DNA of 64,000 nt, taken from contig NZ_FNPB01000001.1 of assembly GCF_900107195.1 (NCBI RefSeq), positions 434,001 to 498,000 on the forward strand, written 5' to 3'. This DNA comes from Halobellus clavatus. Lineage in GTDB: Archaea > Halobacteriota > Halobacteria > Halobacteriales > Haloferacaceae. Within the stretch, counting starts at the first letter, position 1, and every line of letters starts with the position of its first letter. The position numbers were made by a program, and so were the translations under genes. Positions 20,814 to 53,125 of the stretch are shown here, in pieces. The notes under the pieces are model-generated. The model did not search any database and was not told where the DNA came from. It worked only from the letters and a program-made list of their open reading frames with translations.

Positions 20814-22364
20814 TCAGTCCAGCCCCAGCCGGTCTTTCGTGCTCTGTCGGTCGAGCTTTCCGCTCGGTGTCCGATCGATGGCGTCGACGAACTCGTACGT
20901 CCGCGGCCGCTCGTGGTCGGCGACGCGGTCGCTCTCGAGCATCCACGCGTCGAGGTCCTCCGCCGACAGCGCGTCAGACGCCCGCTCGACGATGGCGGTG
21001 ACCTTCTGCCCGTACTCGGGGTCCTCGACGCCGACCACGGCCGCGTTGACCACTTCGTCGTGGTTCTCGAGCGCCTCCTCGATGCTCTCGGGGGTGATCT
21101 TCACGCCGCGCGATTTGATCTGGAAGTCGATGCGGCCCTCGATGTAGAGGAAGCCCTCCTCGTCGAGCCGTCCCCGGTCGCCCGAACGCCACCAGCCGTC
21201 CTCGAAGGCGGCGGCCGCGCGCTCGTCGTCGCCCCACATCCACGGCGGCGACTGGTAGCTCTTGACCGCGATCTCGCCGTACTCGTTCGGCGGGCGTTCG
21301 TCGTCGATCGAGCCGTTGGGGTCGACGATCCGGACTTGGGTGCCCGCCTGAGGCTTGCCGACGCTCTCGATCCGCTCCTCGGTGAGTTCGTTGTTGTAGA
21401 GGATCGTCGAGTGGATCTCCGTCGACCCGTAGGACTGGGTGACGTTCCCGCAGATCTCCGAGCGGAGCCGGCGCAGGGTTTCGGGGTTCAGTTTCTCGCC
21501 CGTCGAGGCGATACTCGACAGCGAACTGAGGTCGTAGGCGTCGGGATCGCTGTCGAGCACTTCCTTCCACATCGTCGGGACGAGCACCGCGCGGGTGATC
21601 CCGCGCTCCTCGACGACGTCGAGCCAGCGCTCGGGGTCCCAGTCGGCCATATAGTACGTCGCCTCACAGCCGAGCAGCGACCGCGTCAGGAAGCTCGTCC
21701 AGATGAGAAACGAGGGCCGATTGACCACGAGCTGCTTGTCGTTCCGGGAGTAGCCGGACCGCGTGGCCAGCTCTCGTCCCTTCAGGAACATCGTGCGGTT
21801 CGTGTGACACCACCCCTTCGGACGGCCCGTGCTGCCCGACGTCCACGCGACGGTCACGATGTCGTCTTCCTCGGCGAGCACGTCTGGCTCTGTCGGCGTC
21901 GCATCCGCGAGGGCCGGAGCCAGCGGCCGCTCGTAGGCGCGTTCTGCGTCTCCCGTCGTGAACACGGTCGAAACGGGGGCGAGCACGTCTTCGCTCACGC
22001 TCGCCGCAAACGAATCGGCGATGTCGCCGTCGACGACGATGACCTTCGGCTTCGTCTGGTCGATGGCGTACCGGAACGCCTCGGGAGCGATACGTCGATG
22101 CAGGTTCGTCGTCACGGCACCCGCCTTCAGCGCCCCGTTGAACAGCACCGCGTGCTGGACGGACGGTTTGCTGTAGAAGGCGATCCGGTCGCCCTTGCTG
22201 ACGTAGTCGCTGAACAGGTCCGCGACGCGCTTACTCCGCTCGTCGAACTCGCCCCACGTCACCGATTCGGTGGCGTCCTCGAAGGCGATTGCGTTCGCGC
22301 TCTTTTTCGCGTTGTGCGCCGAGAGATCCTTCAGCGCCGGCAGTTCGTTGTGGATTCGCTGCAT
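20814..22364 (-). CDS. Class I adenylate-forming acyl-CoA ligase, module copy 1
   Basis: A 516-residue AMP-forming ligase starting MQRIHNELPALKDL at 22364, one base after the upstream amidohydrolase stop. The P-loop-like A3 motif is WTSGSTGRPKGWCHTNR, A5 is QSYGSTEIH, A7 is WWRSGDRGRLDEEG, A8 is GRIDFQIKSRGVKI, and the catalytic lysine lies in RTPSGKLDRQ. It activates a carboxylic acid to acyl-AMP and probably acyl-CoA. It is more divergent than the other three copies (for example PSFLIWTSFLTRSL). Always paired behind an amidohydrolase in this window, it likely acts on that enzyme's product or substrate. Confidence 0.88.
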   Translation of the reverse strand: MQRIHNELPALKDLSAHNAKKSANAIAFEDATESVTWGEFDERSKRVADLFSDYVSKGDRIAFYSKPSVQHAVLFNGALKAGAVTTNLHRRIAPEAFRYAIDQTKPKVIVVDGDIADSFAASVSEDVLAPVSTVFTTGDAERAYERPLAPALADATPTEPDVLAEEDDIVTVAWTSGSTGRPKGWCHTNRTMFLKGRELATRSGYSRNDKQLVVNRPSFLIWTSFLTRSLLGCEATYYMADWDPERWLDVVEERGITRAVLVPTMWKEVLDSDPDAYDLSSLSSIASTGEKLNPETLRRLRSEICGNVTQSYGSTEIHSTILYNNELTEERIESVGKPQAGTQVRIVDPNGSIDDERPPNEYGEIAVKSYQSPPWMWGDDERAAAAFEDGWWRSGDRGRLDEEGFLYIEGRIDFQIKSRGVKITPESIEEALENHDEVVNAAVVGVEDPEYGQKVTAIVERASDALSAEDLDAWMLESDRVADHERPRTYEFVDAIDRTPSGKLDRQSTKDRLGLD

Positions 22365-22365
22365 C

Positions 22366-23460
22366 CTACTGCTCGAGGAACTGGGGGAACAGGCGCTTGT
22401 GCGGCGGCTCGATGTCGTACACCTCACAGAAGTTCCCGCCGAGGATCTTGTTGAGTTCGTCCTGCGGGACGCCGTGGTCCATCGCATACTTGTTGAGCAT
22501 CCGGAGCGACGTGCCCCAGTAGTCGGGCTGGTGCGCCGGGAGGCCCTTGCTGCTGTACTGCTCCCAGCGGATCGACGGGAAGTCGTTCGGGCTCTGTGGA
22601 TCGTGGGAGTTCGCGACCATCGACGCGCCCCAGTCGGTGCCCCACATCAGTTGATCGGGGCCGATGTCGGGGTCGTTCATCGGTCGGTTGAGGATGTCGT
22701 CCCACCACAGACCGACTTCCAGATAGACGTTGTCGTGCTGTTCGGCCACCAGACAGGCCCGCTCGACGTTGTACTTCCAGTGGCCCTGGATGCCGCCGTG
22801 CTCGAAGACGAGGTCGACGTCGGGGTACTCCGCGAGGATGTCGGTCGCGTTGAGCGGATCCCGCCAGTCGGGGAGTTTGTCCTGTTCGCGGAGTCCGCCG
22901 GCCTGGTAGCCCGAAGCCGCGCCGGGATGCCACCGGATCGGGACGTCGTGCTTGGCGGCGACGTCGAAGTACTGGCGGATCTCCTTCTTGCGCTCGCGCC
23001 AGGTCATCCGCTCTTCGAGCGTCGGGTCCGACGGCATGAACTCGCCGATACCGACCATCCCGTCGTGTTCGAGCACCTCGTCGAGTTCGGCAGCGGCGCG
23101 CTCGGTCGACCACTCTTCCTCTCCGCGCAGCGCGGCCTTCTTCGTCTGGACGGGGTATGCACAGGAGACGAACCGGTCGGGATGCTCGTCCATAATTTTC
23201 ATATTGATCTCGTTGGTCATCCCGAAGGCGGGGAGGAGGAGACACATATCGACCCCGTAGCTGTCCATATCGTAGACGAGCCGCTCGGAGTTGTCGTAGA
23301 CGACGACCGGATCGTCGTCGGTCGCCTCGTCGGCCGGGGTGGCGGTGTGCATCAGTTCCCCGAGCCGGGCGTACTCTGCGTCCTCGTCGTTCTCGTCGAA
23401 CTGGACGGCGTGGCGCTGTGGGTGAACGTGCGTGTCGACGACGAATCGTCCTAACTTCAT
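22366..23460 (-). CDS. Metal-dependent amidohydrolase (ACMSD/COG2159-like), module copy 1
   Basis: A 364-residue TIM-barrel hydrolase or decarboxylase starting MKLGRFVVDTHVHPQRHA at 23460. Metal-binding elements in order are D9-T-H11-V-H13, a His in VPIRWHPGAASGY, a His in LVFEHGGIQGHW, and the catalytic Asp in LMWGTDWGASM. This layout matches the family containing ACMSD, resorcylate and 5-carboxyvanillate decarboxylases and some hydrolases. A TATA-like TTATTATCGC lies 28 bases upstream. It forms a two-gene operon with the ligase behind it, spaced by one base. Substrate unknown. Confidence 0.85.
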   Translation of the reverse strand: MKLGRFVVDTHVHPQRHAVQFDENDEDAEYARLGELMHTATPADEATDDDPVVVYDNSERLVYDMDSYGVDMCLLLPAFGMTNEINMKIMDEHPDRFVSCAYPVQTKKAALRGEEEWSTERAAAELDEVLEHDGMVGIGEFMPSDPTLEERMTWRERKKEIRQYFDVAAKHDVPIRWHPGAASGYQAGGLREQDKLPDWRDPLNATDILAEYPDVDLVFEHGGIQGHWKYNVERACLVAEQHDNVYLEVGLWWDDILNRPMNDPDIGPDQLMWGTDWGASMVANSHDPQSPNDFPSIRWEQYSSKGLPAHQPDYWGTSLRMLNKYAMDHGVPQDELNKILGGNFCEVYDIEPPHKRLFPQFLEQ

Positions 23461-33100: not shown

Positions 33101-33164
33101 TCGACAGTGCCGCTGCCGACGTCTCCAACCCGGGCGGATCGTAGAACTCGTCTTCGACTGCCAT
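30138..33164 (-). CDS. Fused FAD-linked and Fe-S 2-hydroxyacid oxidase (GlcD-GlcF type)
   Basis: A 1008-residue fusion. N-terminal FAD-binding_4 domain (about 40-270, PILPRGTGSSLAGQTVGNGC) and FAD-oxidase C domain (to about 530, ending WLLNPGNVV) resemble GlcD/D-lactate dehydrogenase. Two [4Fe-4S] motifs follow: CNGCGTCRQTDSDVMCP and CVGCKGCKSDCP, then CCG-type domains with HGHCNQKATNKDHHA and LDSGCCGMAGSFGYE, as in GlcF. Relatives oxidise glycolate, D-lactate or D-2-hydroxyglutarate, and PEG-carboxylate dehydrogenases are glycolate-oxidase-like. It likely passes electrons to the membrane quinone pool. Here it is the obvious source of glyoxylate or a related 2-oxoacid. Confidence 0.9.
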   Translation of the reverse strand: MAVEDEFYDPPGLETSAAALSTDRPDDERYAALAADLRDRVAGDVQFDEYAQVLYATDGSIYQARPAGVVLPTRIEDVQATVEIARSYDVPILPRGTGSSLAGQTVGNGCVVIDFTKYLDDIVEVDADAKRATVQPGVVQDHLDDRLARDGLQFAPDPASSNRATIGGGIGNNSTGAHSVRYGITDAYTEELRVVLADGSLIHTREVVLDSDEYDAIVAKDDAEARIYQTVRDLVETHKDEIEARYPNLKRSVSGYNLQKVIYENDAGETVINLSKLFVGSEGTLGVIVEATVSLVTKPEETALALYCFDDLVDAMEAVPEALEFPVSAVELMDDEVFRLARESEGYAEYAEPIPDGTTAALMLEWDDELVADFSAAIDDTNAHFVESGAAFDVLEAYSESDQDRLWKLRKAAIPLLMSLDGDPKPYPFIEDATVPPEELAEYVGKFEDVLDAHGTSAAYFAHAGVGTLHIRPILNLKANEGIEKMHSIADDVTDLVVEHHGAFSGEHGDGMARTEFNPKMYGEDLWGAFKQLKTAFDPEWLLNPGNVVYRSDSSDPGPEADRGVGADMRDNLRYGPEYQSIEPQSELDFEDEGGFSELVELCNGCGTCRQTDSDVMCPTYRASKEELQTTRGRANMLRAAISGELGEDEIHSERFQREVLDLCVGCKGCKSDCPTGVDLAKLKAEAKHQYHEEKGASLRSRLFGNIDALSALGSRLAPLSNLASSVPGSRRLLERVFGIAPERELPTFRSESFEAWFDRRGGAAVPADEADGKVLLFPDTYTNYTYPEAGKAAVDVLEAANVHVRVPDDLEPSGRAAFSTGLLDEATSRARHNVEALRPFVDDGWHVAFIEPSDAVMFQDEYLDLLDGPDVEAVAAAAYGVMEYLDLTRADDRLDVDAPAESLTYHGHCNQKATNKDHHAVGVLRRSGYDVDPLDSGCCGMAGSFGYEAEHYDISQAIGRILFRQVEQSDGEVVTAPGASCRSQLGDRPGESQPPHPIEKVAEALDD

Positions 33165-33280
33165 TGTCGATGATAGTCGATGTAGAAATTAAAGCCTCGG
33201 GTGAAACGACGCGGTCGTCGCGGGGGCGTGTCCGCCGCCGACCGAAAGATATAGTGCGAGTTGCTAATCAGTGTCAATCT

Positions 33281-34873
33281 ATGACGGAGCCAAGCGAGTC
33301 CTACGATTACGTAGTCGTCGGTGCGGGGACGGCAGGCTGTGCAGTCGCCACGCGGTTGTCCGCAGCCCCAGACAGGAGCGTGTTGGTGCTCGAAGCGGGC
33401 AAGCCGGATCACGAGCGCTCGATCCACGTGCCCAGCGAGGTCGGACAGCTGTTCAAGACCGACGTCGACTGGGAGTACTACACCGAGCCCCAGGAGGAAC
33501 TGCACGGCCGGGAACTCTTCTGGCCACGCGGGAAGGTCCTCGGGGGATCCAGTTCGATCAACGCGATGATCCACATCCGGGGGCATCCCGCGGACTTCGA
33601 CGGGTGGGCGGCGATGGGCAACGAAGGGTGGAGCTACGACGACCTCCTCCCGTACTTCAAGCGGAGCGAGAACAATCAGCACCGGCGAAACGAGTACCAC
33701 GGGGTCGGCGGTCCGTTGAACGTCACCGACCTCGAGTCGCCGTACGACCTCTCGCGGGTCTTCGTGGACGCCGCCGCCGAAGTCGGCCACCAGCGCAACC
33801 ACGACTTCAACGGCGAGCGGCAGGAAGGCGTTGGCCTCTTCCAGGTGACCCAAAAGGACGGCCAGCGCCACAGCGCGGCGGCGGCCTACCTCAAACCCGC
33901 GCTCGTCGAGCGGTCGAATCTCGACGCGCGGACGGGGGCACAGGTGACCGGTCTCCGGTTCGATGGCGACACTGTCGTCGGGGTCGAGTACGAGACCGAC
34001 GGCGAGCGGCGGGCGGTGGCGGCCGCCGAGGAGGTCGTGCTCTCGGCGGGCACGATCAACTCCGCACAACTGCTGATGCTCTCGGGGATCGGCCCCACCG
34101 ACCACCTCAAGGCGCACGGGATCGACGTCCGCGCGGACCGTCCGGGCGTCGGCCGCAACCTCCAGGATCACCTGTTCATCACCACGCACTACGAGGCCAC
34201 GGGCGCGGAGACGCGTGACGACGTGGGGACGCTCGACGACGTCGTCGAGTTCCACACCCAGCGGTCGGGTCGCCTGACGTCCAACGGCGGCGAGGCCGGG
34301 CTGTTCTTCCGAACTGACCCGGACCTCGACCGCCCCGACGTGCAGTTCCACTTCGGGCCGGGATTCTTCATGCGGCACGGGTACGAGAACCCCGACGAGG
34401 GACGGGGGTTCTACATCGGCGCGACGCAACTCCGGCCCGACAGCCGTGGGCGGATCACGCTTCGCTCGGCGGACCCCTTCGACGATCCGGCGATCGATCC
34501 GCGGTATCTGACGGCTCCGGGCGACGTGGAGACGCTCGTGGAGGGCGTTCGCGAGGCGCGGCGGGTGGCACAGGCTGAGCCATTCGACGAGTACCGTGGC
34601 GAGGAACTCTGGCCCGGCGAGGACGCGCAGACCGACGAGGAGCTTGCCGAACACGTCCGGGAGAAGGCTCAGACGATCTATCACCCCGTCGGGACGTGCA
34701 AGATGGGCGACGGCGAGATGGCCGTCGTCGACGACAGGCTCCGCGTCCACGGCGTCTCGGGGCTGCGCGTCGCCGACGCCTCGGTGATGCCACAGATCGT
34801 CAGCGGCAACACGAACGCGGCGACGCTCGCGATCGGCGAGAAGGCTGCGGATCTCATCGCGGCGGACGAGTGA
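33281..34873 (+). CDS. GMC-family FAD oxidoreductase 2
   Basis: A 530-residue paralogue of GMC 1, starting MTEPSESYDYVVVGAGTAGC at 33281, about 30 bases after a TATA-like AAGATATAGTG; the longer frame runs through the divergent promoter. It has signature 1 GKVLGGSSSINAMIHIRG, signature 2 LSAGTINSAQLLMLSGIGP, and C-terminal IYHPVGTCKMG and IVSGNTNAATLAIGEKAADL. It is read divergently from the FAD/Fe-S oxidase, sharing about 116 bases of control region. The two GMC enzymes probably oxidise related alcohols, perhaps different ends or chain lengths of one substrate. Confidence 0.9.
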   Translation: MTEPSESYDYVVVGAGTAGCAVATRLSAAPDRSVLVLEAGKPDHERSIHVPSEVGQLFKTDVDWEYYTEPQEELHGRELFWPRGKVLGGSSSINAMIHIRGHPADFDGWAAMGNEGWSYDDLLPYFKRSENNQHRRNEYHGVGGPLNVTDLESPYDLSRVFVDAAAEVGHQRNHDFNGERQEGVGLFQVTQKDGQRHSAAAAYLKPALVERSNLDARTGAQVTGLRFDGDTVVGVEYETDGERRAVAAAEEVVLSAGTINSAQLLMLSGIGPTDHLKAHGIDVRADRPGVGRNLQDHLFITTHYEATGAETRDDVGTLDDVVEFHTQRSGRLTSNGGEAGLFFRTDPDLDRPDVQFHFGPGFFMRHGYENPDEGRGFYIGATQLRPDSRGRITLRSADPFDDPAIDPRYLTAPGDVETLVEGVREARRVAQAEPFDEYRGEELWPGEDAQTDEELAEHVREKAQTIYHPVGTCKMGDGEMAVVDDRLRVHGVSGLRVADASVMPQIVSGNTNAATLAIGEKAADLIAADE

Positions 34874-35194
34874 CGGACGGCTCGCACGGACCGGCCTCGC
34901 CGGGGGGAGTGTGGTCGCCGCGGGAGTCGGCGCGGCCGTCGCGCTGCTCGTTGGGGCGGCGAGCGGGTGGGCCAGCGGGCTGTCCGTCGCCTTCCTGCCG
35001 CTCGCGTTCGCCGGGAGGACCCGCGCCGTCGTGCTCACCCATCTCCTCGCGGACCCGCTCGGGGCGAGTCGGCGCCCAGCCTCGCGGCGGGGTCGGCGAC
35101 GACTGCCCCCGGCGCAGCGTTTCGGCGGACCGCGTCCTGGTCTCTGTGTTCGTACCGCAAAGAGCTTAAGAGCCTCCGTGGAGTGGCGGAGCGT
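34874..35194. other. Intergenic region with possible decayed membrane-protein fragment
   Basis: One frame (about 34905-35050) encodes a hydrophobic Ala/Val/Gly/Leu-rich stretch (VAAGVGAAVALLVGAASGWA, then LSVAFLPLAFAG) before turning into Arg-rich nonsense. This may be the debris of a transporter gene removed in the same event that gutted the amidohydrolase next door. A TATA-like GAGCTTAAGAG at about 35162-35172 lies 28 bases before the ATG of the relic at 35195. Confidence 0.35.
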
Positions 35195-35365
35195 ATGAAA
35201 CCCGGCCGGTTCATCGTCGAGCGTCTGCGGGCCCCCGAGCGGTACACCGACGAGAGCGAGTTGCGCCAGGACGGCCTGCCCCCGATCCTCGGCGGCGACG
35301 TCGTCCGGCTGTTCGACCACGAGGCGCCGCACGCGCGACTGTTCTCGCAGGTCGTCCAGGCATAA
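35195..35365 (+). pseudogene. Internally deleted amidohydrolase relic, 56 codons
   Basis: The frame starts MKPGRFIVE, identical to the first nine residues of amidohydrolase copy 2. It ends ILGGDVVRLFDHEAPHARLF plus a short tail, which aligns with the last ~25 residues of the full enzymes (ILGGNAVRLFDIEVEDDRMF). About 300 central residues with all metal ligands are gone; the bridging residues RLRAPERYTDESELRQDG are unrelated or degenerate. The leaderless promoter is retained and the TAA stop overlaps the ligase ATG (TAATG). It cannot be an enzyme; it may persist as a leader that keeps the ligase expressed. Confidence 0.75.
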
Positions 35366-36930
35366 TGCACACTCACGCTACCCACGACGTTGCGACGCTC
35401 AAAGAGATCTCGACGATCGCCGCCGAGAACAACCCGAACCGGGTCGCGTTCGCGGACGCGGCAGGGGGTCGGGAGTTGACGTGGTCGGAGTACGACGAGC
35501 GAAGCCGTCGGGCGGCGAACGCACTCTTCGAACACCTCCGACAGGGCGACCGCGTCGCGTTCCTGTGTGAGGCGTCGGTCGATCACGTCACGCTGTGGAA
35601 CGGCGCGCTGAAGGCCGGGGCGATCGTGACGAACCTCCACACCAAGTCCTCGGCGGAGATGATGCGGTACTGCATCGACGAGGTTCGACCCGCGGTGCTG
35701 GTCCTCGACGAGGAGTACGCGGCGTTCTTCGAAGAGCGTGTCGCAGACGAGATCGACACGGATCTGGAGGCGATCGTCACCACAGGCGAACCGCAGGCCG
35801 AGTACGAACAGTCGATCGCGACGTTCCTCGACGGTCGCGACGCCACCGAGCCAGACGTTCGCGTCGAGGCCGACGACGTGGCCGCGATCCTCTGGACCTC
35901 GGGGACCACCGGACGACCGAAGGGCTGGTGTCACACCAACCGGGGGTTGCTCCTGAAAGGAATGAAAGAGCTGGCCCCGCTCCGGATCACGCGGGTCGTT
36001 CGGATGTTGATGGTGTTCTCGCCGTCGTTCGGCGCGTGGTACTCCTCGACGGTCCCCGCGATGCTCACGAACGCGAGTACGTACTTTATGCGCCACTGGG
36101 ATCCCCGGGCCTGTCTCGAACTGATCGACCGGGCGTCGCTGACGAACGCCACCGCCGTCACGACGATGTGGCGGGAGGTGCTCCGAGTCGACGGCATCGA
36201 GGAGTACGACCTGGATTCGCTGCGTACCGTCGGCGTGACCGGCGAACCCGTCGACGAGGCGACGCTGTCGGCGATCCGCGAGCAGATCTGCGACTACCTG
36301 ATCAACGGCTACGCCGCCACCGAAGTGGTCGCGACGTCGATCCACGATCCCGAGATGCGCGGGCAGCGACGCAAAAGCGTCGGCAAACCGGTCGCCGGAA
36401 CGCAGGTCAAGGTGATCGAGGATGGCGGCGGTCTCGACGACGAACTCCCGCCGGGCGAGACCGGCGAGATCGTGATCAAGGGCGAGGACTGCGCCGTCTG
36501 GGCCTGGGGAGACACCGAGAAGACCGAATCCGCGTTCGAGGACGGGTGGTGGTTCTCGGGTGACCTCGGCTACAAGGACGAGGACGGCTACCTCTTCTTG
36601 GAGGGCCGGTCCGACTTTATGATCAAATCGAAGGGAGTGAAGGTGTTCCCCAGTCCGATCGAGGAGCGGCTCACGGAGCACCCGAGCGTCTCCGAAGCGG
36701 CCGTCGTCGGCGTCGACGACGAGGAGTACGGACAAATGGTGACTGCGATCGTCGCCCGGGGAGACGACGGCGTCACGAGCGAAGATTTAGACGAGTGGTG
36801 TCTCGAGAGCGACGAGATCGCGCGGTTCGAGCGGCCCCGCGAATACTACTTCGTCGATGGATCGCTCCCACGGACGGCGAGCGGGAAACTCGACCGGATG
36901 GACGCCGAGGCGATGATCGACGACGAGTGA
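35365..36930 (+). CDS. Class I adenylate-forming acyl-CoA ligase, module copy 2
   Basis: A 521-residue ligase whose ATG overlaps the stop of the amidohydrolase relic. Motifs are A3 WTSGTTGRPKGWCHTNRG, A5 INGYAATEVVATS, A7 WWFSGDLGYKDEDGYLFLEG, A8 GRSDFMIKSKGVKV, and the C-terminal lysine in RTASGKLDRMD. It shares the unusual VAFLCEASVDHVTLWNGALK and SPSFGAWYSSTVPAML segments with copies 3 and 4. It probably makes acyl-CoA from a polar carboxylic acid. It is the only ligase here without an intact amidohydrolase partner directly in front, so it may rely on paralogues in trans. Confidence 0.88.
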   Translation: MHTHATHDVATLKEISTIAAENNPNRVAFADAAGGRELTWSEYDERSRRAANALFEHLRQGDRVAFLCEASVDHVTLWNGALKAGAIVTNLHTKSSAEMMRYCIDEVRPAVLVLDEEYAAFFEERVADEIDTDLEAIVTTGEPQAEYEQSIATFLDGRDATEPDVRVEADDVAAILWTSGTTGRPKGWCHTNRGLLLKGMKELAPLRITRVVRMLMVFSPSFGAWYSSTVPAMLTNASTYFMRHWDPRACLELIDRASLTNATAVTTMWREVLRVDGIEEYDLDSLRTVGVTGEPVDEATLSAIREQICDYLINGYAATEVVATSIHDPEMRGQRRKSVGKPVAGTQVKVIEDGGGLDDELPPGETGEIVIKGEDCAVWAWGDTEKTESAFEDGWWFSGDLGYKDEDGYLFLEGRSDFMIKSKGVKVFPSPIEERLTEHPSVSEAAVVGVDDEEYGQMVTAIVARGDDGVTSEDLDEWCLESDEIARFERPREYYFVDGSLPRTASGKLDRMDAEAMIDDE

Positions 36931-37290
36931 GGGGCCATCGCAAGTGATCGGCGATCCGATCCACGTCGAGATCGTGCGTTCCGACGTTTCGTCCCGGCGT
37001 TTCGCCGGTGTTCGATGCGTTCCGTCTGTTACACGCGCGGGGTTTCGTCTCGGCACAGAGACGGGTGCCCGTCCGCCGACTGCGACGACCGAAAGAGCGT
37101 CTCGGTCGACGACGAAAACGACCCGAAGACAGACCACGAGAGCGCGCGCTCAGAGATATTTTATGATACAAAATCCGGATCCGACGCTCGCAGCTCGACC
37201 GGAGTCGGTCAGGGCAGACGAGCAGCGATAGTAACACGTGTACGTTTGGTATAGTTATTCCAGTAGCCGGCCGGTACCGGCGGACAGCCC
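36931..37290. other. 360-bp intergenic region, convergent genes
   Basis: The ligase (plus strand) and the IclR gene (minus strand) converge here. I see no supported gene and no RNA gene. Local AT-rich patches (AGATATTTTATGATAC near 37155 and GTATAGTTATTCC near 37250) could contain terminators. Confidence 0.5.
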
Positions 37291-38055
37291 TCAGGAGTAC
37301 GTGAGTCTGAGTTCGATCAGATTCGCGACGTTCTTGATCTGACTGACGTACTCCTCGCGGTCCTCGTCGCTGTCGATGCGGTTTTTCGGGACCGAGAGGC
37401 TGATCGCACCCGCAACCGCGCCCGCTTCGGTGAGGATCGGAGCGCCGATGCACCGCAGGCCCCGCCAGTTCTCCTCGTCGTCGAAGGCGTGCCCACGCTC
37501 TTCGATCTGGTCGAGTTCGGCGGACAGTTCGGCCCTGTCGGTGATCGTATTCTCCGTGATTGCGGGGAGTCCGCGATGATCGATGATCGCCTCGATTCGC
37601 TCGTCTGGGAGGTGCGCCAGAATCGCCTTCCCGAGCGCCGAGTTGTGCAGCGTGACCTGACTTCCGACGTGAGTGTCGATGTCGACGGCGCTTTCGCCCT
37701 TAGCTCGATGGAGGACGACTGCCAAGCCCCGTTCGTGCGTCGCGAGCGTCGCCAACTCCCCGGTGTCGGCCGCCAGTTGGTCGACGTTCGGCTTCGCCGC
37801 CTCGTACAACGGCTCGTCGTTCCTGAGAACCCCACCGACGTTGAGGAACTTGAGACTCAGCCGGTACGTGTCGCCCTCCTTCACCACGTACTCGTGTTCT
37901 CGGAGCGTACTCAGGTGGTTGTGCACCGTGCTGTTGTGCAGTTCGACGTCCGCCGCCAGCGTCTGGAGGGTGGCCGAGCGGAGTCGCTTCAGCGACTCGA
38001 CGATGGCCACCGTCTTCTCCAGAGATTTGATCGGGTGATTTGCTTTCTCGGTCAT
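37291..38055 (-). CDS. IclR-family transcriptional regulator
   Basis: A 254-residue IclR protein starting MTEKANHPIKSLEKTVAIVE at 38055. The N-terminal winged HTH (about 10-70: LQTLAADVELHNSTVHNHLS) is followed by the effector-binding GAF-like domain, with NSALGKAILAHLP, GLRCIGAPILTEAGAVAGAI and SLSVPKNRI typical of the family. IclR proteins sense small organic acids (glyoxylate, pyruvate and aromatic acids among them) and control catabolic operons. It is divergent from malate synthase, with a strong palindrome between them, so regulation of aceB and wider island genes is likely. Confidence 0.9.
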   Translation of the reverse strand: MTEKANHPIKSLEKTVAIVESLKRLRSATLQTLAADVELHNSTVHNHLSTLREHEYVVKEGDTYRLSLKFLNVGGVLRNDEPLYEAAKPNVDQLAADTGELATLATHERGLAVVLHRAKGESAVDIDTHVGSQVTLHNSALGKAILAHLPDERIEAIIDHRGLPAITENTITDRAELSAELDQIEERGHAFDDEENWRGLRCIGAPILTEAGAVAGAISLSVPKNRIDSDEDREEYVSQIKNVANLIELRLTYS

Positions 38056-38205
38056 ACCACAGCCCACCGCGGGCGGACACATTAGTTTTTACATTAGAAA
38101 ATCTGAACGTTCCGGGTTCGAAACAGTAGTCTGTCCGGAGGAAAGCCTTCATATCGGCCATAGTGTACCGAAATCAGCCACGGATCACGACGCTATTGGG
38201 CGGAC

Positions 38206-38226
38206 AAATTTGGTGTCACTAAATTT
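38206..38226. promoter_or_regulatory. Operator-like palindrome between iclR and aceB
   Basis: A 21-bp near-perfect inverted repeat with half-sites AAATTTGGTG and CACTAAATTT around a central T; nine of ten base pairs match. It is AT-rich at both ends in GC-rich DNA. It lies 94 bases before the aceB start and about 150 before the iclR start, where IclR-type operators are expected. The aceB TATA-like ACTTTTAATAAG is centred near 38288. Confidence 0.55.
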
Positions 38227-38319
38227 CGCCACACCCGACGCGCAAACGGCGAGCCGCCGGGAGACTGCCGGTCGGCGCAGTACTTTTAATAAGATTCGTG
38301 GAGTGGTTCGAGGTGGATT

Positions 38320-39636
38320 ATGAGTCTCGACACCACTGACAGGCACTACGAGCGCGAGTTCGTACGGACGTTCTTCACGTCGCCGACGGCCGTGGAAGGT
38401 GAAGACGACTCGGCGAAGATGCTCCGGAGCGCGGCGCAGCTTCGGGGGATGCAAGCGCCCGACGTCTGGGTCCCGGACAACGAGGACGCCACTGCCCCGT
38501 CGATGCGCGCGGAGGGGATCGGAAACATCATCGACGTCGTCGCCGAGCACGGTGCGGATTTCCCTGGTGAGATCCACCCGCGGGTCGTCTGGCACCGCGA
38601 GGATCCGGCGCTCCGCTATCAGGGGTTCCAGCAAATGCTGCGGATTGCCACGGACGACAGCGACGCGATCGAGCACCTCGACGGGTTCGTCATCCCGGAA
38701 GTTGGCGACATCGACGACTGGAAGAAGGCCGACGAGTTCCTCACTATCGTCGAACACGAGGCCGGCCTCGAGACGGGCTCGCTCTCGATGTCCGTGATCG
38801 TCGAGTCCGGCGAGGCCGAGTTGGCGCTCGGAGACCTCCGCGCGGAGATGGGGAAACCCGCGAACAACCTCGAACGGCTGTTCCTGCTCGTCGACGGCGA
38901 AGTCGACTACACCAAGGATATGCGTGCGATGACGCGCACCGGCGGACTGCCGCCGTGGCCGGAACTCCGGCACAACACCTCCCGCGGGGCCAGCGCGGCC
39001 GGACTGATCGCCGTCGACGGCCCCTACGACGACATCCGTGACGAGGCGGGCTACCTCGCCCGGATGCGTGAGAACCGCGAGAAGGGGATGACGGGGATCT
39101 GGTCGCTGACGCCCGGCCAGGTCGTCGCGGCGAACACCGCGCCGCTCCCGCCCGAGGACGGCAGTTGGCTGTTGGAAGTCGACGGCGAGGAGATCGACCT
39201 CACGGAGGCGGACGGGAACCACGTCTACGACGGCGACGCGGTCGCCATCGAAAAGGCCGGCGAGGACGACTACGTGCTGTCGACCGGGAGCGACACACGC
39301 GAACTCGACGCGGACGAACTCCGCGAGGAAGTCGTGAATATGGCGGCGTACGTCCCCGGGATGGACGACATTGTCGACTCGATGGAGGAGTTCGAGGCCG
39401 CCAAGGAGGCCGGTCGCGGCGCGATCGCGATGACGCAGTCGGCGACGCTCGTGATCGACGGCGTGGAGATCGAGATCAGCAGGGACCGGATGTGGGACGA
39501 GGCGACCTACCAGGCCGCACAGACCCCGATCACGCTCTTCCAGGACGTCTACGAGCACCGGCCCGACCAGCACGAGGCACTCGAGGAGATGTACGGCGAG
39601 GACGTCGTCGAGCGCGCGACGGCCGTCGGCTCCTGA
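38320..39636 (+). CDS. aceB: Malate synthase, haloarchaeal type
   Basis: A 438-residue protein closely matching the haloarchaeal malate synthase characterised in Haloferax volcanii, a CitE/HpcH-like TIM barrel (isoform H) distinct from bacterial MS-A/MS-G. Conserved segments include FVRTFFTSPTAVEGEDDSAK, QAPDVWVPDNEDATAPSMR, FVIPEVGDIDDWKKADEF, LRHNTSRGASAAGLIAVDGP and the C-terminal MWDEATYQAAQTPITLFQDV. It condenses glyoxylate with acetyl-CoA to malate. Isocitrate lyase, its usual neighbour, is absent here, so glyoxylate is expected from island catabolism rather than from isocitrate. It has a leaderless promoter and a divergent IclR gene. Confidence 0.95.
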   Translation: MSLDTTDRHYEREFVRTFFTSPTAVEGEDDSAKMLRSAAQLRGMQAPDVWVPDNEDATAPSMRAEGIGNIIDVVAEHGADFPGEIHPRVVWHREDPALRYQGFQQMLRIATDDSDAIEHLDGFVIPEVGDIDDWKKADEFLTIVEHEAGLETGSLSMSVIVESGEAELALGDLRAEMGKPANNLERLFLLVDGEVDYTKDMRAMTRTGGLPPWPELRHNTSRGASAAGLIAVDGPYDDIRDEAGYLARMRENREKGMTGIWSLTPGQVVAANTAPLPPEDGSWLLEVDGEEIDLTEADGNHVYDGDAVAIEKAGEDDYVLSTGSDTRELDADELREEVVNMAAYVPGMDDIVDSMEEFEAAKEAGRGAIAMTQSATLVIDGVEIEISRDRMWDEATYQAAQTPITLFQDVYEHRPDQHEALEEMYGEDVVERATAVGS

Positions 39637-45529: not shown

Positions 45530-46606
45530 ATGAAACCTGGGCGATTCATCGTCGAGACCCACTGTCACGCACAGCGTCACGCGGTGAACATACAAAAAGA
45601 GGGAGATTCGAGTTATGGGAACCTCGCGGACAAGATGAAACTCGCCGTTCCGGCCGACGAGGCCGACGGCGACGAGGACGTCGTCATTTACGACAACTCC
45701 GATCGGGTGCTCCGCGATATGGACACCTATGGCGTCGATATGGCGGTGCTCCTCTCGGGATTCGGGATGACCAACGAGATCAACAAACAGATCATCGACG
45801 AGAACCCAGACACGTTCATCGCGGCCGCAGCACCCGCGCAGACGAAGAAGAAGGCCCTCCGCGGCGAAGAGGAGTGGACCTGGGAGGCCGCGGCCGCCGA
45901 ACTCGACGAGTGGCTCTCGAAGGACGGCTTCCGGATGACCGGCGAGGGGATCCGCGGGGACCCCACGCGGACCGAGCCGATCGAGTGGTCCCAGCGGAAG
46001 AAGGACATGCGTCACGTCTTCGACGTCGCCGCGAAACACGACGTTCCGGTCCGCTGGCACACCGGCTACGCCTCCGGCTACGGGGGAAATCACCTGTTCA
46101 ACCTCTATCCAGACTGGTCGGATCCGACGCTCGCCTCGCAGTTGAAGGCCGAGTACCCCGAGGTCCCGATCATCTTCGATCACGGCGGCATGCAGGCCGG
46201 CTGGCAAGAGGACTACGTCGACAAGTGCTGTCAGGTGGCCGCGACCTTCGACGACGTGTATATCGAGATCGGCCTCTACTGGAAGGACCTGATGAAGAAG
46301 CCGCTGAACGATCCGAACATCAGCATCGAGCAGATCCTGTGGGGCAACGACTGGGGCGCATCGATGGTCCAGCACAGCCAGCCGAACGAGGACCCGCCGG
46401 TCTTCTGGGAACAGATCGAGTCGCGTGGGCTCCCCGCCCATCAGCCCGATTACTGGGGTGCTGGACTCCGGCAACTCCAGAAGTTCGCGATGGAAGAGGA
46501 CCTGCCGCAGGAGGAACTCAATCTCATCCTCGGCGGCAACGCGGTCCGGCTCTTCGACATCAAGGTCGAGGACGATCGGATGTTCCGAAACTACATCGAC
46601 ATCTGA
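45530..46606 (+). CDS. Metal-dependent amidohydrolase, module copy 2
   Basis: A 358-residue ACMSD/COG2159-like TIM barrel beginning MKPGRFIVETHCHAQRHA, so the metal pair is H-C-H with Glu instead of Asp before it. Further ligands are His in VPVRWHTGYASGYGG, His in IIFDHGGMQAGW, and Asp in ILWGNDWGASM (the usual T-D is N-D here). It is very similar to copy 4 and clearly a recent duplicate. No ligase follows directly; the next gene is copy 3 and then ligase 3, so this looks like an enlarged module of two hydrolases and one ligase. Confidence 0.85.
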   Translation: MKPGRFIVETHCHAQRHAVNIQKEGDSSYGNLADKMKLAVPADEADGDEDVVIYDNSDRVLRDMDTYGVDMAVLLSGFGMTNEINKQIIDENPDTFIAAAAPAQTKKKALRGEEEWTWEAAAAELDEWLSKDGFRMTGEGIRGDPTRTEPIEWSQRKKDMRHVFDVAAKHDVPVRWHTGYASGYGGNHLFNLYPDWSDPTLASQLKAEYPEVPIIFDHGGMQAGWQEDYVDKCCQVAATFDDVYIEIGLYWKDLMKKPLNDPNISIEQILWGNDWGASMVQHSQPNEDPPVFWEQIESRGLPAHQPDYWGAGLRQLQKFAMEEDLPQEELNLILGGNAVRLFDIKVEDDRMFRNYIDI

Positions 46607-46715: not shown

Positions 46716-47819
46716 ATGAGAATGGGTCGATTCGTCATCGATACGCACGTGCACGGACAGCGGGTCGCGGTCAACTTCCAAGACCGCGAAGAGCGGCCGG
46801 ACTACGCCACGCTGAGCAAGCTGATGTGGAACGCGGAGGACGCCGATCAGGCGGACGACGACGCCGAGATCGTCACCTATCGCAACACCGACCGGCTCCT
46901 GTACGACATGGACCTCTACGACATCGATATGGTCTGTCTCCAGCCCGGCTTCGGATTCAGCGACCGCCTCCACGGGAAGATGGTCGAAGAGCACCCCGAC
47001 AAGTTCGTCGCGTTCGCGCACCCGTACGAAACGAACCGGAAAGCGGTCGCGGGCGAAGAAGAGTGGGACATCGACCGCGCCTGTGAGGAACTCGACGAGC
47101 GACTGAGCCAGGACGGGTTCGTCGGCATCGGAGAGATGCTCCCGTTCGATCCGACGATCGTCGACCGCGCCGAGCGCGTCCCGTGGGAGGAGCGACACGA
47201 TCAGCTCCGGAAGATCTACGACGTCGCCGCGAAGCACGACGTGCCGGTCCGGTGGCACCCCGGATCGGTCAACGGCGGCTACGAACGCGACCCGAGTACC
47301 CTGCTGCCGGATCGCCGCAGCATCAAGTACGCCGTCGATCTCCACCTCGAATATCCCGACGTCCCGATCATCATCGATCACGGCGGCGTCCAGGGCAACT
47401 GGCGGAAGAACGTCGAGGAGTCCTGTAACGTCGCAGCCACCTACGACAACGTCTATCTCGAGATCGGGAACTACTGGTCGGATCTGATCAAACGGCCGAT
47501 GAACGATCCGAACATCGGCGCGGATCAGCTGATCTACGGCACCGACTGGGGCGCCTCGTGGATCGCCGAGAACAACCCGGCGAACCGCTCGACCGGCGAG
47601 TACGACTACCCGCCGCAGCGGTGGACGCAGATCAAAGAGCGCGGGCTGCAGGCGCATCAGGCCGACGCGTGGGGGAGCTCCCAGCGGCAGATCGACAAGT
47701 ACGCCCGTGAGATGGACCTCCCGGCCGACGACCTCAATCTCATCATGGGTGGAAACGTCTGCCGACTGCTCGACATCGATCCGCCACACAAGCGGCTGTT
47801 CCCGAAATACATCGACTGA
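46716..47819 (+). CDS. Metal-dependent amidohydrolase, module copy 3
   Basis: A 367-residue enzyme beginning MRMGRFVIDTHVHGQRVA. Ligands are D-T-H-V-H, His in VPVRWHPGSVNGGY, His in IIIDHGGVQGNW and Asp in LIYGTDWGASW. It is nearer to copy 1 than to copies 2 and 4 in having a D-T-H-V-H motif and an IDPPHKRLFPKYID C-terminus. The stop lies two bases before the ligase 3 ATG, so the pair is tightly coupled. The divergence between copies 1/3 and 2/4 suggests two substrate classes or two steps of one pathway. Confidence 0.85.
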   Translation: MRMGRFVIDTHVHGQRVAVNFQDREERPDYATLSKLMWNAEDADQADDDAEIVTYRNTDRLLYDMDLYDIDMVCLQPGFGFSDRLHGKMVEEHPDKFVAFAHPYETNRKAVAGEEEWDIDRACEELDERLSQDGFVGIGEMLPFDPTIVDRAERVPWEERHDQLRKIYDVAAKHDVPVRWHPGSVNGGYERDPSTLLPDRRSIKYAVDLHLEYPDVPIIIDHGGVQGNWRKNVEESCNVAATYDNVYLEIGNYWSDLIKRPMNDPNIGADQLIYGTDWGASWIAENNPANRSTGEYDYPPQRWTQIKERGLQAHQADAWGSSQRQIDKYAREMDLPADDLNLIMGGNVCRLLDIDPPHKRLFPKYID

Positions 47820-47821
47820 CG

Positions 47822-49390
47822 ATGGAGTCGTCCGCAACCTCGGAGATGCCGACCATCCGGGAACTGTCCAGCATCGCCGTCGAGAACAACCCCAACAAGG
47901 TCGCCTACGCCGAGGGGATCGACGGGCGAGAGATCACCTGGGCGACGTTCGACGAGCGGAGCAAGCGGGCCGCGAACGGGCTTCGCGAGCACGTCGGTCA
48001 GGGCGATCGCGTCGCGTACCTGTGTGAGGGGAGCGTTTCGCACGTTACGCTGTGGAACGGCGCGCTGAAGGCTGGCTGTATCGTTTCGAACCTCCACGTT
48101 CGCGAATCGCCGGAGACGACGCGGTCCTGTATCGACTCGCTCCGCCCGCGAGTGCTCGTCGTCGACGAGGCGCGCTCGGCGTTCGTCGAAGCGCACGTCT
48201 ACGACCGGATCTCGACGGACCTCGCGGCCGTCGTGACGACGGGCGAACCCCAGACGGACTACGAGGTCTCGATGGACGATCTGCTGGCGGACCAGCCGGC
48301 CGAAGAACCCGACGTCAACGTCGGTGCGGACGATCCCGCCGCGGTGATCTGGACGTCCGGGACGACCGGGGAGCCGAAGGGCTGGACGCACACCAACCGA
48401 GCCCTGATGCATCGGGGATCGAAACTCGCCCACAAGAAGGGAATGACCCGTCGGACCCGAGTGCCGAACGTGTTTTCACCGTCGTTCGCGGCGTGGTACT
48501 CGACGACGCTGCCAGCGCTGCTCTCGAACGCCTCCTCGTACTTCCTGCCCGACTGGGAGCCCGAGCGGTACGTGCAGTGCCTCGAAGAACGGTCGATCAC
48601 GACCGCGAACCTCGTGCCCACGATGTGGCGTGAGATCCTCCGGTTGGAGAACCTAGACGAGTACGACCTGAGCAGCCTCCGGGAGATCGAGGCGGCGGGG
48701 GAGACGCTCGATGCGACGACGCTGACGAACCTCCGTGAGCACATCTGCGAGACCGTCTCGCAGTCGTACGCCGCGACAGAGACCTGTGGGACGAACATCG
48801 CGAACGACGAGATCGGCGACGATCGGCTCGAGAGCGTCGGCAAACCGCTCTTGGGCATCCAGATCCGAGTGGTTCAGGAGGGCGGCGATCCCGACGACGT
48901 GCTGGAACCCGGGAAGATCGGCGAAGTGATCGTCAAGAGTAGCGACTCGGCCGCGTGGGTGTGGGGAGATACGGCGAAAACCGACGACGCCTTCCAGGAC
49001 GGCTGGTGGTACTCGGGCGATCTCGGGTACAAAGACGAGGACGGCTACCTCTACATCGAGGGTCGCGACGACAATATGATCCTCTCGAAGGGGCTCAAGG
49101 TGTTCCCGACGCCTATCGAAGAGCGGCTCAACACCCATCCGGACGTCGTCGAGACCGGCGTCGTCGGCGTCGATGACGAGGAGTACGGCGAGAAGGTGAC
49201 CGCCGTCGTCACCCGGAGCGATCCGGAGCTGACAGCCGAAGAACTCGACGAGTGGTGTCTCGAGAGTGACAAGCTGTCACGCTTCGAGCGACCGCGGACG
49301 TATCACTTCCGCGACGAGACGCTCCCACGGACCTCCAGCGACAAACTCGATCGGCAGACGATCAGAGAGCAACTGGAAGCCGAGCGCTGA
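47822..49390 (+). CDS. Class I adenylate-forming acyl-CoA ligase, module copy 3
   Basis: A 522-residue ligase directly behind amidohydrolase 3. A3 is WTSGTTGEPKGWTHTNR, A5 is QSYAATETCGTNI, A7 is WWYSGDLGYKDEDGYLYIEG, A8 is GRDDNMILSKGLKV, and the C-terminal catalytic lysine is in RTSSDKLDRQ. It shares VAYLCEGSVSHVTLWNGALK with copies 2 and 4. The A8 Asp/Asn change (DDNMI for SDFMI) near the hinge is a copy-specific feature. It probably activates the same carboxylate handled by the adjacent hydrolases. Confidence 0.88.
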   Translation: MESSATSEMPTIRELSSIAVENNPNKVAYAEGIDGREITWATFDERSKRAANGLREHVGQGDRVAYLCEGSVSHVTLWNGALKAGCIVSNLHVRESPETTRSCIDSLRPRVLVVDEARSAFVEAHVYDRISTDLAAVVTTGEPQTDYEVSMDDLLADQPAEEPDVNVGADDPAAVIWTSGTTGEPKGWTHTNRALMHRGSKLAHKKGMTRRTRVPNVFSPSFAAWYSTTLPALLSNASSYFLPDWEPERYVQCLEERSITTANLVPTMWREILRLENLDEYDLSSLREIEAAGETLDATTLTNLREHICETVSQSYAATETCGTNIANDEIGDDRLESVGKPLLGIQIRVVQEGGDPDDVLEPGKIGEVIVKSSDSAAWVWGDTAKTDDAFQDGWWYSGDLGYKDEDGYLYIEGRDDNMILSKGLKVFPTPIEERLNTHPDVVETGVVGVDDEEYGEKVTAVVTRSDPELTAEELDEWCLESDKLSRFERPRTYHFRDETLPRTSSDKLDRQTIREQLEAER

Positions 49391-50464: not shown

Positions 50465-51547
50465 ATGAAATTAGGACGATTCATCGTCGAAACGCACTGC
50501 CACGCGCAGCGCCACGCCGTCCGGATCCAGGACCACGGCGACGACTCGGCGTACGAGACCCTGCCGGACAAGATGAAGATGGCCGTCCCCGCCGAGGAGT
50601 CCGACGGCGAAGACGACGTCATCGTCTACGACAACTCCGATCGGGTGCTCCGCGATATGGACACCTACGGCGTCGATATGGCCGTCCTGCTCCCGAGTTT
50701 TGGGATGACCAACGAGATCAACAAACAGATCATCGACGAGAACCCAGACACGTTCATCGCGGCTGCTGCGCCCGTCCAGACGAAGAAGAAGGCCCTCCGC
50801 GGCGAGGAGGAGTGGTCCTGGGAGGCCGCAGCCGCCGAACTCGACGAGTGGCTCTCGAAGGACGGCTTCCGGATGACCGGCGAGGGAATCCGCGGGGACC
50901 CCACCCGGACCGAGCCGGTCGAGTGGTCCCAGCGGAAGAAGGACATACGTCACGTCTTCGACGTGGCAGCCGATCACGAGGTTCCGGTCCGCTGGCACAC
51001 GGGCTACGTGTCCGGCTACGGCGGCGCGCACGGCCTGTTCAACATCTTCCCCGACTGGTCGGACCCGACACTCGCCTCACAGATGAAAGCGGAGTATCCC
51101 GAGGTGCCGATCATCTTCGATCACGGTGGGATGCAGGCCGGCTGGCAGGAACACCACGTCGAGAAGTGTTGTCAGGTGGCCGCGACGTTCGACGACGTGT
51201 ACCTGGAGATCGGTCTGTACTGGCCGGAACTGATGAAGAAGCCGCTGAACGATCCGAACATCAGCATCGAGCAGATCCTGTGGGGGACCGACTGGGGCGC
51301 CTCGATGGTCGAACACAGCCAGCCGAACGAGGACCCGCCCTACTACTGGGAGCAGATCAACGAGCGGGGACTGCCCGCGCACCAGTCAGACTACTGGGGG
51401 CCGAGTCTGCGCCAACTCCAGAAGTTCGCGATGGAACAGGATCTGCCGCAGGAGGAACTCAATCTCATCCTCGGCGGCAACGCGGTCCGGCTCTTCGACA
51501 TCGAGGTCGAGGACGACCGGATGTTCCGGAACTACATCGACGTCTGA
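50465..51547 (+). CDS. Metal-dependent amidohydrolase, module copy 4
   Basis: A 360-residue near-duplicate of copy 2, beginning MKLGRFIVETHCHAQRHA. Ligands are in H-C-H, VPVRWHTGYVSGYGG, IIFDHGGMQAGW and ILWGTDWGASM (the canonical T-D is kept here). The start at 50465 fits a TATA-like GTTTATGAAC about 28 bases upstream. The stop lies 18 bases before ligase 4. Intact ligand residues argue that this is a working enzyme; the reaction (hydrolysis or decarboxylation) cannot be told from sequence. Confidence 0.87.
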   Translation: MKLGRFIVETHCHAQRHAVRIQDHGDDSAYETLPDKMKMAVPAEESDGEDDVIVYDNSDRVLRDMDTYGVDMAVLLPSFGMTNEINKQIIDENPDTFIAAAAPVQTKKKALRGEEEWSWEAAAAELDEWLSKDGFRMTGEGIRGDPTRTEPVEWSQRKKDIRHVFDVAADHEVPVRWHTGYVSGYGGAHGLFNIFPDWSDPTLASQMKAEYPEVPIIFDHGGMQAGWQEHHVEKCCQVAATFDDVYLEIGLYWPELMKKPLNDPNISIEQILWGTDWGASMVEHSQPNEDPPYYWEQINERGLPAHQSDYWGPSLRQLQKFAMEQDLPQEELNLILGGNAVRLFDIEVEDDRMFRNYIDV

Positions 51548-51565
51548 GCCGGAGGCACCAAGTCG

Positions 51566-53125
51566 ATGCACACCACCGCCAGGGTCGATCTTCCGTCGCT
51601 CAGGGAGCTATCGAGTCTCGCCGCCGAGAGCAATCCGAGCGGGGAAGCGTTCGCCGACGGTGTCGACGGACGGTCGATCACGTGGGACGCATTCGACGAG
51701 CGGAGCGCCCGCGCGGCCAACGCGCTTCGCGAGCACGTCGGTCAGGGCGATCGCGTCGCGTTCGTCTGTGAGGGGTCAGTCGATCACGTCACGCTGTGGA
51801 ACGGCGGACTGAAGGCCGGCTGTCTGGTCTCGAACCTCCACGTCCGCTCGTCGCCGGAGACGATGCGCGACTGCATCGATCGGCTCCGCCCGCGCGTGGT
51901 GGTCTTAGACGAGGAGTTCTCCGAGTTCTTCGAAGAGCGCGTCTACGGCGACATCACCACGGACCTCGACGCGGTAATCACCACGGGCGACCCACGCGCC
52001 GACTACGAGACGTCGATCGAATCGGCGCTGGCGGGACAGCCGGCGACCGAGCCGGACGTCCGCTCGCGCGAGGAGGACCTCGTCAGCGTCGTGTGGACGT
52101 CGGGCACGACTGGGCAGCCGAAGGGGTGGTGTCTCTCGAACCGCGCGGCGGTGTTACGCGGGGTGAAACTGATGGGGGCGTTGAACATCAGTCGGACGAC
52201 GCGACGGGTCCAGGTCCTCTCGCCGTCGTTCGCGGCGTGGTTCACCGGGACCGTGCCCGCGATGCTGACGGCATCGGCGACGTGCTTCCTCCGCACGTGG
52301 GACCCGGAGACGTATCTGCGCGTCATCGACGAGCGCGAGCAGACGATGGCGACGCTAGTGCCGACGATGTGGCGCGAGGTGCTCGATTTGGACGCGTTCG
52401 GGGCGTACGACCTCGGATCGCTGGAGCGGATCACCGCCGCCGGTGAGCAACTCGATGCGACGACGCTCGAACGCCTGCGGGACCACGTCTGCGAACGCGT
52501 CTACAACGCCTACGCTGCCACGGAGATGATGGTGACGTCGATCTCCGAGCGGGAGATGGACGACGAGCGGATCGGGAGCGTCGGAAAGCCCGCCGTGGGC
52601 ACGCAGGTCAGAATCGTTCCGGAGGGCGGCCCGCCGGACGCCGAACAGCCGCCCGGCGAGGTCGGCGAAGTCATCGTCAAGGGACCGGACTGCCCGCTGT
52701 GGGCGTGGGGTGACACCGAAACGACCGAGGCGGCGTTCGAGGACGGCTGGTGGTACTCCGGCGACCTCGGCTACAAGGACGACGAGGGGTATCTCTTCTT
52801 GGAGGGGCGGAGCGATTTCGTGATCCTCTCGAAGGGGATCAAGATCTCGCCGGTGCCGATCGAGGAGCGACTCGACGCGCATCCCGACGTCGAAGCGTCG
52901 GCGGTCGTCGGGGTGGACGACGAGGAGTACGGCGAGAAGGTGACCGCCGTCGTCCACCGTGGAGATCCGGAACTGACCGCCGCGGAACTCGACGAGTGGT
53001 GCCTCGAGAGCGACGAACTCGCGCGGTACGAGCGACCGCGGGCGTATCACTTCCGCGACGAACCGCTCCCGCGGACGGCCACGAACAAACTGGACCGACA
53101 GGGAGCCCGCTCGACGATCGAGTGA
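51566..53125 (+). CDS. Class I adenylate-forming acyl-CoA ligase, module copy 4
   Basis: A 519-residue ligase. A3 is WTSGTTGQPKGWCLSNR, A5 is NAYAATEMMVTS, A7 is WWYSGDLGYKDDEGYLFLEG, A8 is GRSDFVILSKGIKI, and the C-terminal lysine is in RTATNKLDRQ. The acyl-pocket region SPSFAAWFTGTVPAMLTASA differs from the other copies, hinting at altered substrate preference. It forms the last module of the island; the tRNA-Met gene and mobile element begin about 260 bases downstream. Confidence 0.88.
   Translation: MHTTARVDLPSLRELSSLAAESNPSGEAFADGVDGRSITWDAFDERSARAANALREHVGQGDRVAFVCEGSVDHVTLWNGGLKAGCLVSNLHVRSSPETMRDCIDRLRPRVVVLDEEFSEFFEERVYGDITTDLDAVITTGDPRADYETSIESALAGQPATEPDVRSREEDLVSVVWTSGTTGQPKGWCLSNRAAVLRGVKLMGALNISRTTRRVQVLSPSFAAWFTGTVPAMLTASATCFLRTWDPETYLRVIDEREQTMATLVPTMWREVLDLDAFGAYDLGSLERITAAGEQLDATTLERLRDHVCERVYNAYAATEMMVTSISEREMDDERIGSVGKPAVGTQVRIVPEGGPPDAEQPPGEVGEVIVKGPDCPLWAWGDTETTEAAFEDGWWYSGDLGYKDDEGYLFLEGRSDFVILSKGIKISPVPIEERLDAHPDVEASAVVGVDDEEYGEKVTAVVHRGDPELTAAELDEWCLESDELARYERPRAYHFRDEPLPRTATNKLDRQGARSTIE

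Follow-up and report, generated by a model that had tools for sequence, protein, structure and literature searches.

A 56-codon remnant of an amidohydrolase gene as a likely translational leader of an acyl-CoA ligase in Halobellus clavatus

Translational coupling of closely spaced genes has been described in detail for the haloarchaeon Haloferax volcanii, where leaderless mRNAs make up 72% of the coding transcripts (PMC4983044). In Haloferax, SD motifs within 5′-UTRs do not initiate translation, and coupling was strict in each of nine close pairs examined (Huber et al. 2019, PMC6728339). When tested in E. coli, 15 nt of upstream gene were enough for coupling; gaps near 20 nt almost abolish coupling (Huber et al. 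2023, PMC10666635). Here we describe a short ORF (the stub) and an acyl-CoA ligase gene in a 64,000-nt stretch of DNA (the window) from the draft genome of Halobellus clavatus (3.75 Mb in 30 contigs, completeness 99%). Like the H. volcanii coupled pairs, the stub-ligase pair is haloarchaeal, and it has a -1 nt TAATG overlap and a second gene that lacks its own promoter. The upstream genes of the H. volcanii pairs are working genes, whereas the first ORF of the H. clavatus pair is what is left of a gutted enzyme, and its coupling to the ligase is predicted only.

Homology and coding signal of the stub

The pair consists of the following features.

35195..35365, + strand: stub ORF of the gutted hydrolase, 56 codons, by HMM, codon and homology evidence (first nine codons at 35195-35221, C-terminal part at 35222-35362, TAA at 35363-35365)
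35365..36930, + strand: intact AMP-forming acyl-CoA ligase, 521 aa (Pfam AMP-binding, 218 bits, plus the C-terminal domain)

The stub (35195-35365) translates as MKPGRFIVERLRAPERYTDESELRQDGLPPILGGDVVRLFDHEAPHARLFSQVVQA followed by the stop. In an HMM built from 32 intact hydrolases of the window and related genomes, stub residues 1-9 aligned with model positions 1-9 and residues 10-54 with positions 314-358 (E 2e-12 for one comparison), and the two pieces abut with no filler between them. A tail-only HMM gave the stub 45 bits, and the anchored tail score was reached by 0 of 2,000 shuffles. The nine N-terminal residues by themselves are too short for significance (E 0.036), yet they are correctly positioned and identical to the N terminus of the intact hydrolase H2 (45530). 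The stub stops where the intact H2 and H4 proteins stop, and about 304 codons are absent relative to H4. This collinear, in-frame homology to both ends of Amidohydro_2 (PF04909) confirmed that 35195-35365 is an in-frame remnant of a PF04909-type amidohydrolase, consisting of its first 9 and last ~47 residues. The sequence-only reading had recognized an amidohydrolase gutted to a 56-codon frame before a ligase, and its nine N-terminal residues stand; its estimate of ~25 residues for the tail was too short by the HMM.

Residues H11, H13, H178, H220 and D276 (H4 numbering; the HxH motif, two His and an Asp) are invariant in the aligned intact copies and all lie in the deleted part. We take them to be the usual metal ligands of the amidohydrolase superfamily. 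Pfam assigned the stub to no family, compared with 39 to 62 bits for intact PF04909 copies. With all inferred metal ligands deleted and the Pfam barrel match absent, the stub cannot be an Amidohydro_2 enzyme.

The stub frame nevertheless looks like coding DNA. Its codon score was +0.67 bits/codon, against -0.54 just upstream in the same frame, so that the signal begins at the ATG; GC1/2/3 was.79/.41/.93, against a flat 76% GC in the upstream intergenic DNA. Ranked by codon score among genuine coding windows, the stub tail came at the 37th percentile, and it contained no indel or stop. The 321 nt between the upstream GMC oxidoreductase gene and the stub (34874-35194; 76% GC) are also open in the stub frame but carry neither a codon signal nor a Pfam match.

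At the protein level the tail has diverged. Three of its eight invariant columns were changed, while intact copies lose at most one of nine; median identity to intact copies was 38%, while these share at least 43% among themselves, and the hydrolase tail pattern was present at only 38 to 45% identity. The changed residues include the N of GGN and the N of LN, motifs kept even in a Desulfatiglandales relative that is 44 to 47% identical. (That relative, a hydrolase from a metagenome-assembled genome [L135, 4001-5026], shows this identity to the haloarchaeal proteins, a hint of cross-domain transfer.) We simulated neutral decay of an H2 or H4 tail to the divergence of the stub (~50 substitutions), ignoring indels and taking the ancestor to be H2/H4-like and the equilibrium GC to be 76%: 44% of runs remained without a stop, 3% kept stub-like codon usage, and 2% did both. 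These results speak less for long neutral decay than for a stub that is still translated and constrained as coding sequence, or for a recent deletion that hit a gene already adrift.

Intact modules, the ligase and the TAATG overlap

Four intact PF04909-type hydrolases lie near the stub, three of them directly followed by an AMP-forming CoA ligase.

20814..23460, - strand: intact module H1 (23460-22366) and L1 (22364-20814), gap +1 nt
33281..34873, + strand: GMC oxidoreductase, 5′ of the stub (domain match)
45530..46606, + strand: intact hydrolase H2 (PF04909), with the same first nine residues as the stub
46716..49390, + strand: intact module H3 (46716-47819) and L3 (47822-49390), gap +2 nt
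50465..53125, + strand: intact module H4 (50465-51547) and L4 (51566-53125), gap +18 nt

The PF04909-ligase modules of Halobellus (in the window and in H. rufus CBA1103, H. captivus, H. rarus and H. limi) and the stub-ligase pair are alike in gene order, strand and the place of the stop codon, and they have in common the start motif M(K/R)xGRF and the C-terminal pattern GGxxxRLFD. The stub differs in having no catalytic barrel and in that a gap of +1 to +37 nt is closed to -1. Intact modules abound in the window and in sister species. Since full modules are the general state, descent of the pair from a full hydrolase-ligase module, as originally proposed, is well supported.

The stub TAA (35363-35365) overlaps the ligase ATG as TAATG. 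We found no TAATG or other overlap in intact hydrolase-ligase modules, whose stop-to-ATG gaps were +1 (H1-L1), +2 (H3-L3), about +7 to +12, +18, +24 and +37 nt. The idea that the TAATG had been retained from the ancestral module is thus contradicted: the -1 overlap is peculiar to the stub and, with that qualification, a derived or unique feature rather than one simply kept. A derived -1 overlap should strengthen coupling, since coupling in H. volcanii falls steeply with distance (PMC10666635).

For the ligase (35365-36930), no other ligase in the genus, family and order searched exceeded 59% identity. In a tree of 47 ligases it stood alone on a long branch, separate from the L3, L4 and orphan groups (fork support 91/31), so that its closest intact module cannot be named. 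No orthologue of the stub or the ligase above 59% was found in 17 genus, 170 family and 392 drawn order genomes, in plasmids or in a pattern scan of GTDB contigs. The proposed comparison with related strains for an intact copy at the locus therefore yielded no orthologous locus in the genus, family or order genomes, and without an orthologue the deletion cannot be dated or polarized and dN/dS is impossible. The case that would have spoken against a gutted gene, relatives that encode this short protein but have no full-length ancestor for it, was also sought and not found, including in the 392 order-level genomes. Conservation of the frame is accordingly assessed indirectly, by codon usage and the neutral-decay simulation (P 0.02 to 0.03, one genome).

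Gene order in relatives differs from that in the window. A GMC orthologue lies directly 5′ of an intact H1-L1 module in several sister species: H. rarus, H. limi and a further genome (G007) have the order aceB-GMC-H1-L1, divergent from an IclR gene, and H. captivus has GMC-H1-L1. In the window, GMC is followed by the stub and ligase instead, and H1-L1 lies ~10 kb away. This gene order suggests that rearrangement has brought together in the window two clusters that lie apart in relatives. The region 30138-39636 is a glyoxylate-type neighborhood comprising a GlcD-GlpC-like fusion, the GMC oxidoreductase, an IclR regulator (37291) closest to BhcR, and malate synthase; its order is kept in several Halobellus species and rearranged in the window. 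Between the window modules and those of relatives, H3 was conserved at 91 to 95% and L3 at 67 to 77%, and H1 at 85 to 88% and L1 at 74 to 75%, suggesting that ligase specificity may diverge while hydrolase chemistry stays fixed.

The stub promoter and an element shared with aceB

35161..35170, + strand: TATA-like element AGAGCTTAAG, 34 nt before the stub ATG (PWM)
35177..35186, + strand: element CGTGGAGTGG, 11 nt from the start of TTAA, with the same spacing as before aceB
38297..38306, + strand: second copy of CGTGGAGTGG, in the aceB promoter (exact 10-mer match)
38320-39636: aceB, haloarchaeal malate synthase (NCBIfam NF041315, 821 bits)

Promoter-like sites were scored with a TATA-type PWM built from the promoters of 20 first genes, which gives a consensus scan and not a transcript map. 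The element before the stub scored 6.1, a value equaled or exceeded at 4% of window positions, while the sequence before the ligase ATG scored -6.6, a value equaled or exceeded at 68% of positions. Other second genes also scored low (L3, -5.7; L1, -5.5). By this consensus scan, a promoter-like site is present only at the stub start and the ligase has no promoter of its own. Retention of promoter, start codon and frame in the stub thus holds, with a TATA-like site at -34 and an open, coding-like frame from the ATG.

The 10-mer CGTGGAGTGG has only two exact matches in the window, and the composite TTAANAGNNTNCGTGGAGTGG, with at most one mismatch allowed, occurs only before the stub and aceB in the whole 3.75-Mb genome. 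Given the 10-mer and TTAA spacing common to both promoters, the stub-ligase unit is probably regulated together with the malate synthase gene. An origin of the shared element as a tandem duplicate of the aceB promoter was considered and set aside, as by eye there was no similarity beyond the TATA and the 10-mer. The 10-mer was absent from the aceB promoters of sister species. Those of H. limi, H. rarus and G007 (L073, L074 and L075) have in common a TATA-centered near-palindrome, GCGGTAATTTTAATACCGC in two of them, which is missing from the aceB of the window, where CGTGGAGTGG is found; this may reflect a regulatory switch.

A proposed leader role for the stub and its alternatives

The most likely present role of the stub, one we consider rather probable, is that of a short leader cistron for the ligase. 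In this proposal, an in-frame deletion of ~304 codons would have stripped out the hydrolase while the ligase, itself promoterless, stayed connected. Transcription would begin at or next to the stub ATG to give a leaderless mRNA, on which ribosomes would start at the 5′ AUG, translate the 56 stub codons, stop at the UAA overlapping the ligase AUG, and reinitiate there (a UAAUG hand-over). A frame-breaking deletion would instead have left the ligase AUG ~170 nt into the transcript with no effective start signal. We infer the leaderless transcript, the reinitiation and the selection for frame. With haloarchaeal mRNAs mostly leaderless and close pairs strictly coupled in Haloferax, the simplest account is that ribosomes are loaded at the stub AUG and handed to the ligase at the UAAUG. 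The pair has two features of a termination-reinitiation pair, namely, the -1 nt overlap and no promoter-like site of the ligase's own by PWM.

A parallel case is found in H. captivus ZY21 (G003, L079), where an H3 hydrolase has been reduced to 76 codons before the orthologue of the window L3. Its N part matches H3 residues 1-44 (E 2.8e-10) and is joined in frame to a C part of ~32 residues (~333-364; E 0.005; 0 of 4,000 anchored shuffles), and its stop lies 5 nt before the intact ligase. Both stubs thus join N and C ends in frame before an intact ligase; the H. captivus stub differs in hydrolase type, in the absence of an overlap and in having lost its coding signature (-0.42 bits/codon; GC.68/.55/.66). 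H. captivus retains another H3 elsewhere. In-frame gutting before a retained ligase has therefore occurred at least twice, and the second stub is decaying, which indicates that ligases can survive a decaying leader.

Other truncated hydrolases were set aside or are recorded only as observations. In G006, a 63-codon ORF between an H2 gene (TGATG) and a ligase (TAATG) (L080, reverse strand, ~6323-6525) may be a bridge ORF. We did not count it as another case of gutting: the resemblance of its last ~20 residues to the H3 tail is weak (HMM E 0.003 to 0.2; 18 of 4,000 in a 12-residue shuffle), and its codons look noncoding. An H2 truncation in G003 adjoins a run of N and was left out. The H. captivus H4 (L079, 10233-11320) is split over two frames beside a run of N and may be a scaffold-gap artifact. 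In H. rarus YC21, an isolated C-terminal hydrolase fragment of ~82 residues (L086, 4079-4321; G011:C6:21078-21323) has no barrel or ligase match nearby and lies near a gene homologous to that of the HTH_10 regulator in the window.

Ligases of the same family also occur with no hydrolase at all. Fifteen ligases, drawn from several families, form a clade (support 100/100; e.g., G000:C18:250677-252221) with no hydrolase within 1.4 kb upstream. Most of these, unlike the stub's ligase, have a TATA-type promoter directly before the ATG and no leader ORF; among the Halobellus members (L039, L040, L049, L051, L052, L053, L057 and L083) this promoter is near identical, with TCTCAAATTATAAG directly before the ligase ATG. 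To judge from these sequences, orphan ligases would have met the expression problem through a promoter of their own. Hydrolase and ligase are thus demonstrably separable, so that the uncoupling raised in the sequence-only reading is possible but, with a whole clade lacking the hydrolase, already common and not new.

Several explanations compete with the leader. The stub might be a plain recent pseudogene, with a deletion in frame by chance, a ligase that is simply still expressed and a remnant under no selection. One deletion in three falls in frame; a high-GC frame of 47 codons often stays open (P 0.44, simulation); other intact hydrolases in the genome would make the loss cheap; and the H. 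captivus H3 stub, with its neutral composition and lost coding signal, fits such a course. Against this, codon usage here is not eroded even though invariant residues have changed (neutral P ~0.02 to 0.03), the tail is free of indels and stops, the tight -1 overlap is unlike intact modules, and the promoter element is common to aceB. We regard this account as possible but doubtful. The earlier suggestion that the deletion was selected to preserve ligase expression is accordingly favored but not proven: the stub-only promoter, the element shared with aceB, the neutral-decay P of 0.02 to 0.03 and the H. captivus parallel speak for it, whereas the evidence comes from one genome with no orthologue of the locus, and the H. 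captivus stub is decaying.

How the join arose is a separate matter. Unequal recombination between tandem modules, uniting the start of one hydrolase with the end of another, concerns mechanism only and is compatible with the leader. Tandem modules exist in the window (H2-H3-L3-H4-L4) and in relatives, and the first nine stub codons are close to those of H2 (24 of 27 bases by eye), but the stub tail is about equidistant from every hydrolase type, so that no donor can be named; we consider this origin unlikely. A functional 56-residue peptide, for instance one that partners or regulates the ligase, would account for coding-like codon usage from the ATG, yet it belongs to no Pfam family, has no copy in 392 order-level genomes and carries the hydrolase tail pattern at only 38 to 45% identity, which makes it improbable. 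An assembly or sequencing artifact is least credible of all: the genome is a draft of 30 contigs, but neither end of the stub nor the ligase has a DNA-identical counterpart in the window to collapse with, the promoter and the codon signal are as expected of a genuine ORF, and completeness is 99%.

The stub is thus a clear gene relic whose role as a leader is likely but unproven; its parts are ordinary, their combination is moderately interesting, and the locus is a good natural test of coupling. Our incomplete literature search found no paper on a gutted gene kept as a coupling leader, which is weak evidence of novelty. Tentatively, enzymes in the multicopy hydrolase-ligase operons of haloarchaea may repeatedly have been hollowed out in frame, with the stub kept as a translated leader feeding the ligase. 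Strict haloarchaeal coupling predicts constrained loss of a first gene, since the second would fall silent if the first were deleted whole or out of frame. Within one gene family three natural outcomes are seen: the stub still looks coding, the stub is decaying, or the ligase has its own promoter. They make the prediction directly testable. For annotators, such short ORFs may be regulatory leaders and not noise. If such repeated hollowing is real, translational coupling would channel gene decay into bridge ORFs that are short and keep the frame, in this case with the gap drawn in to a -1 overlap.
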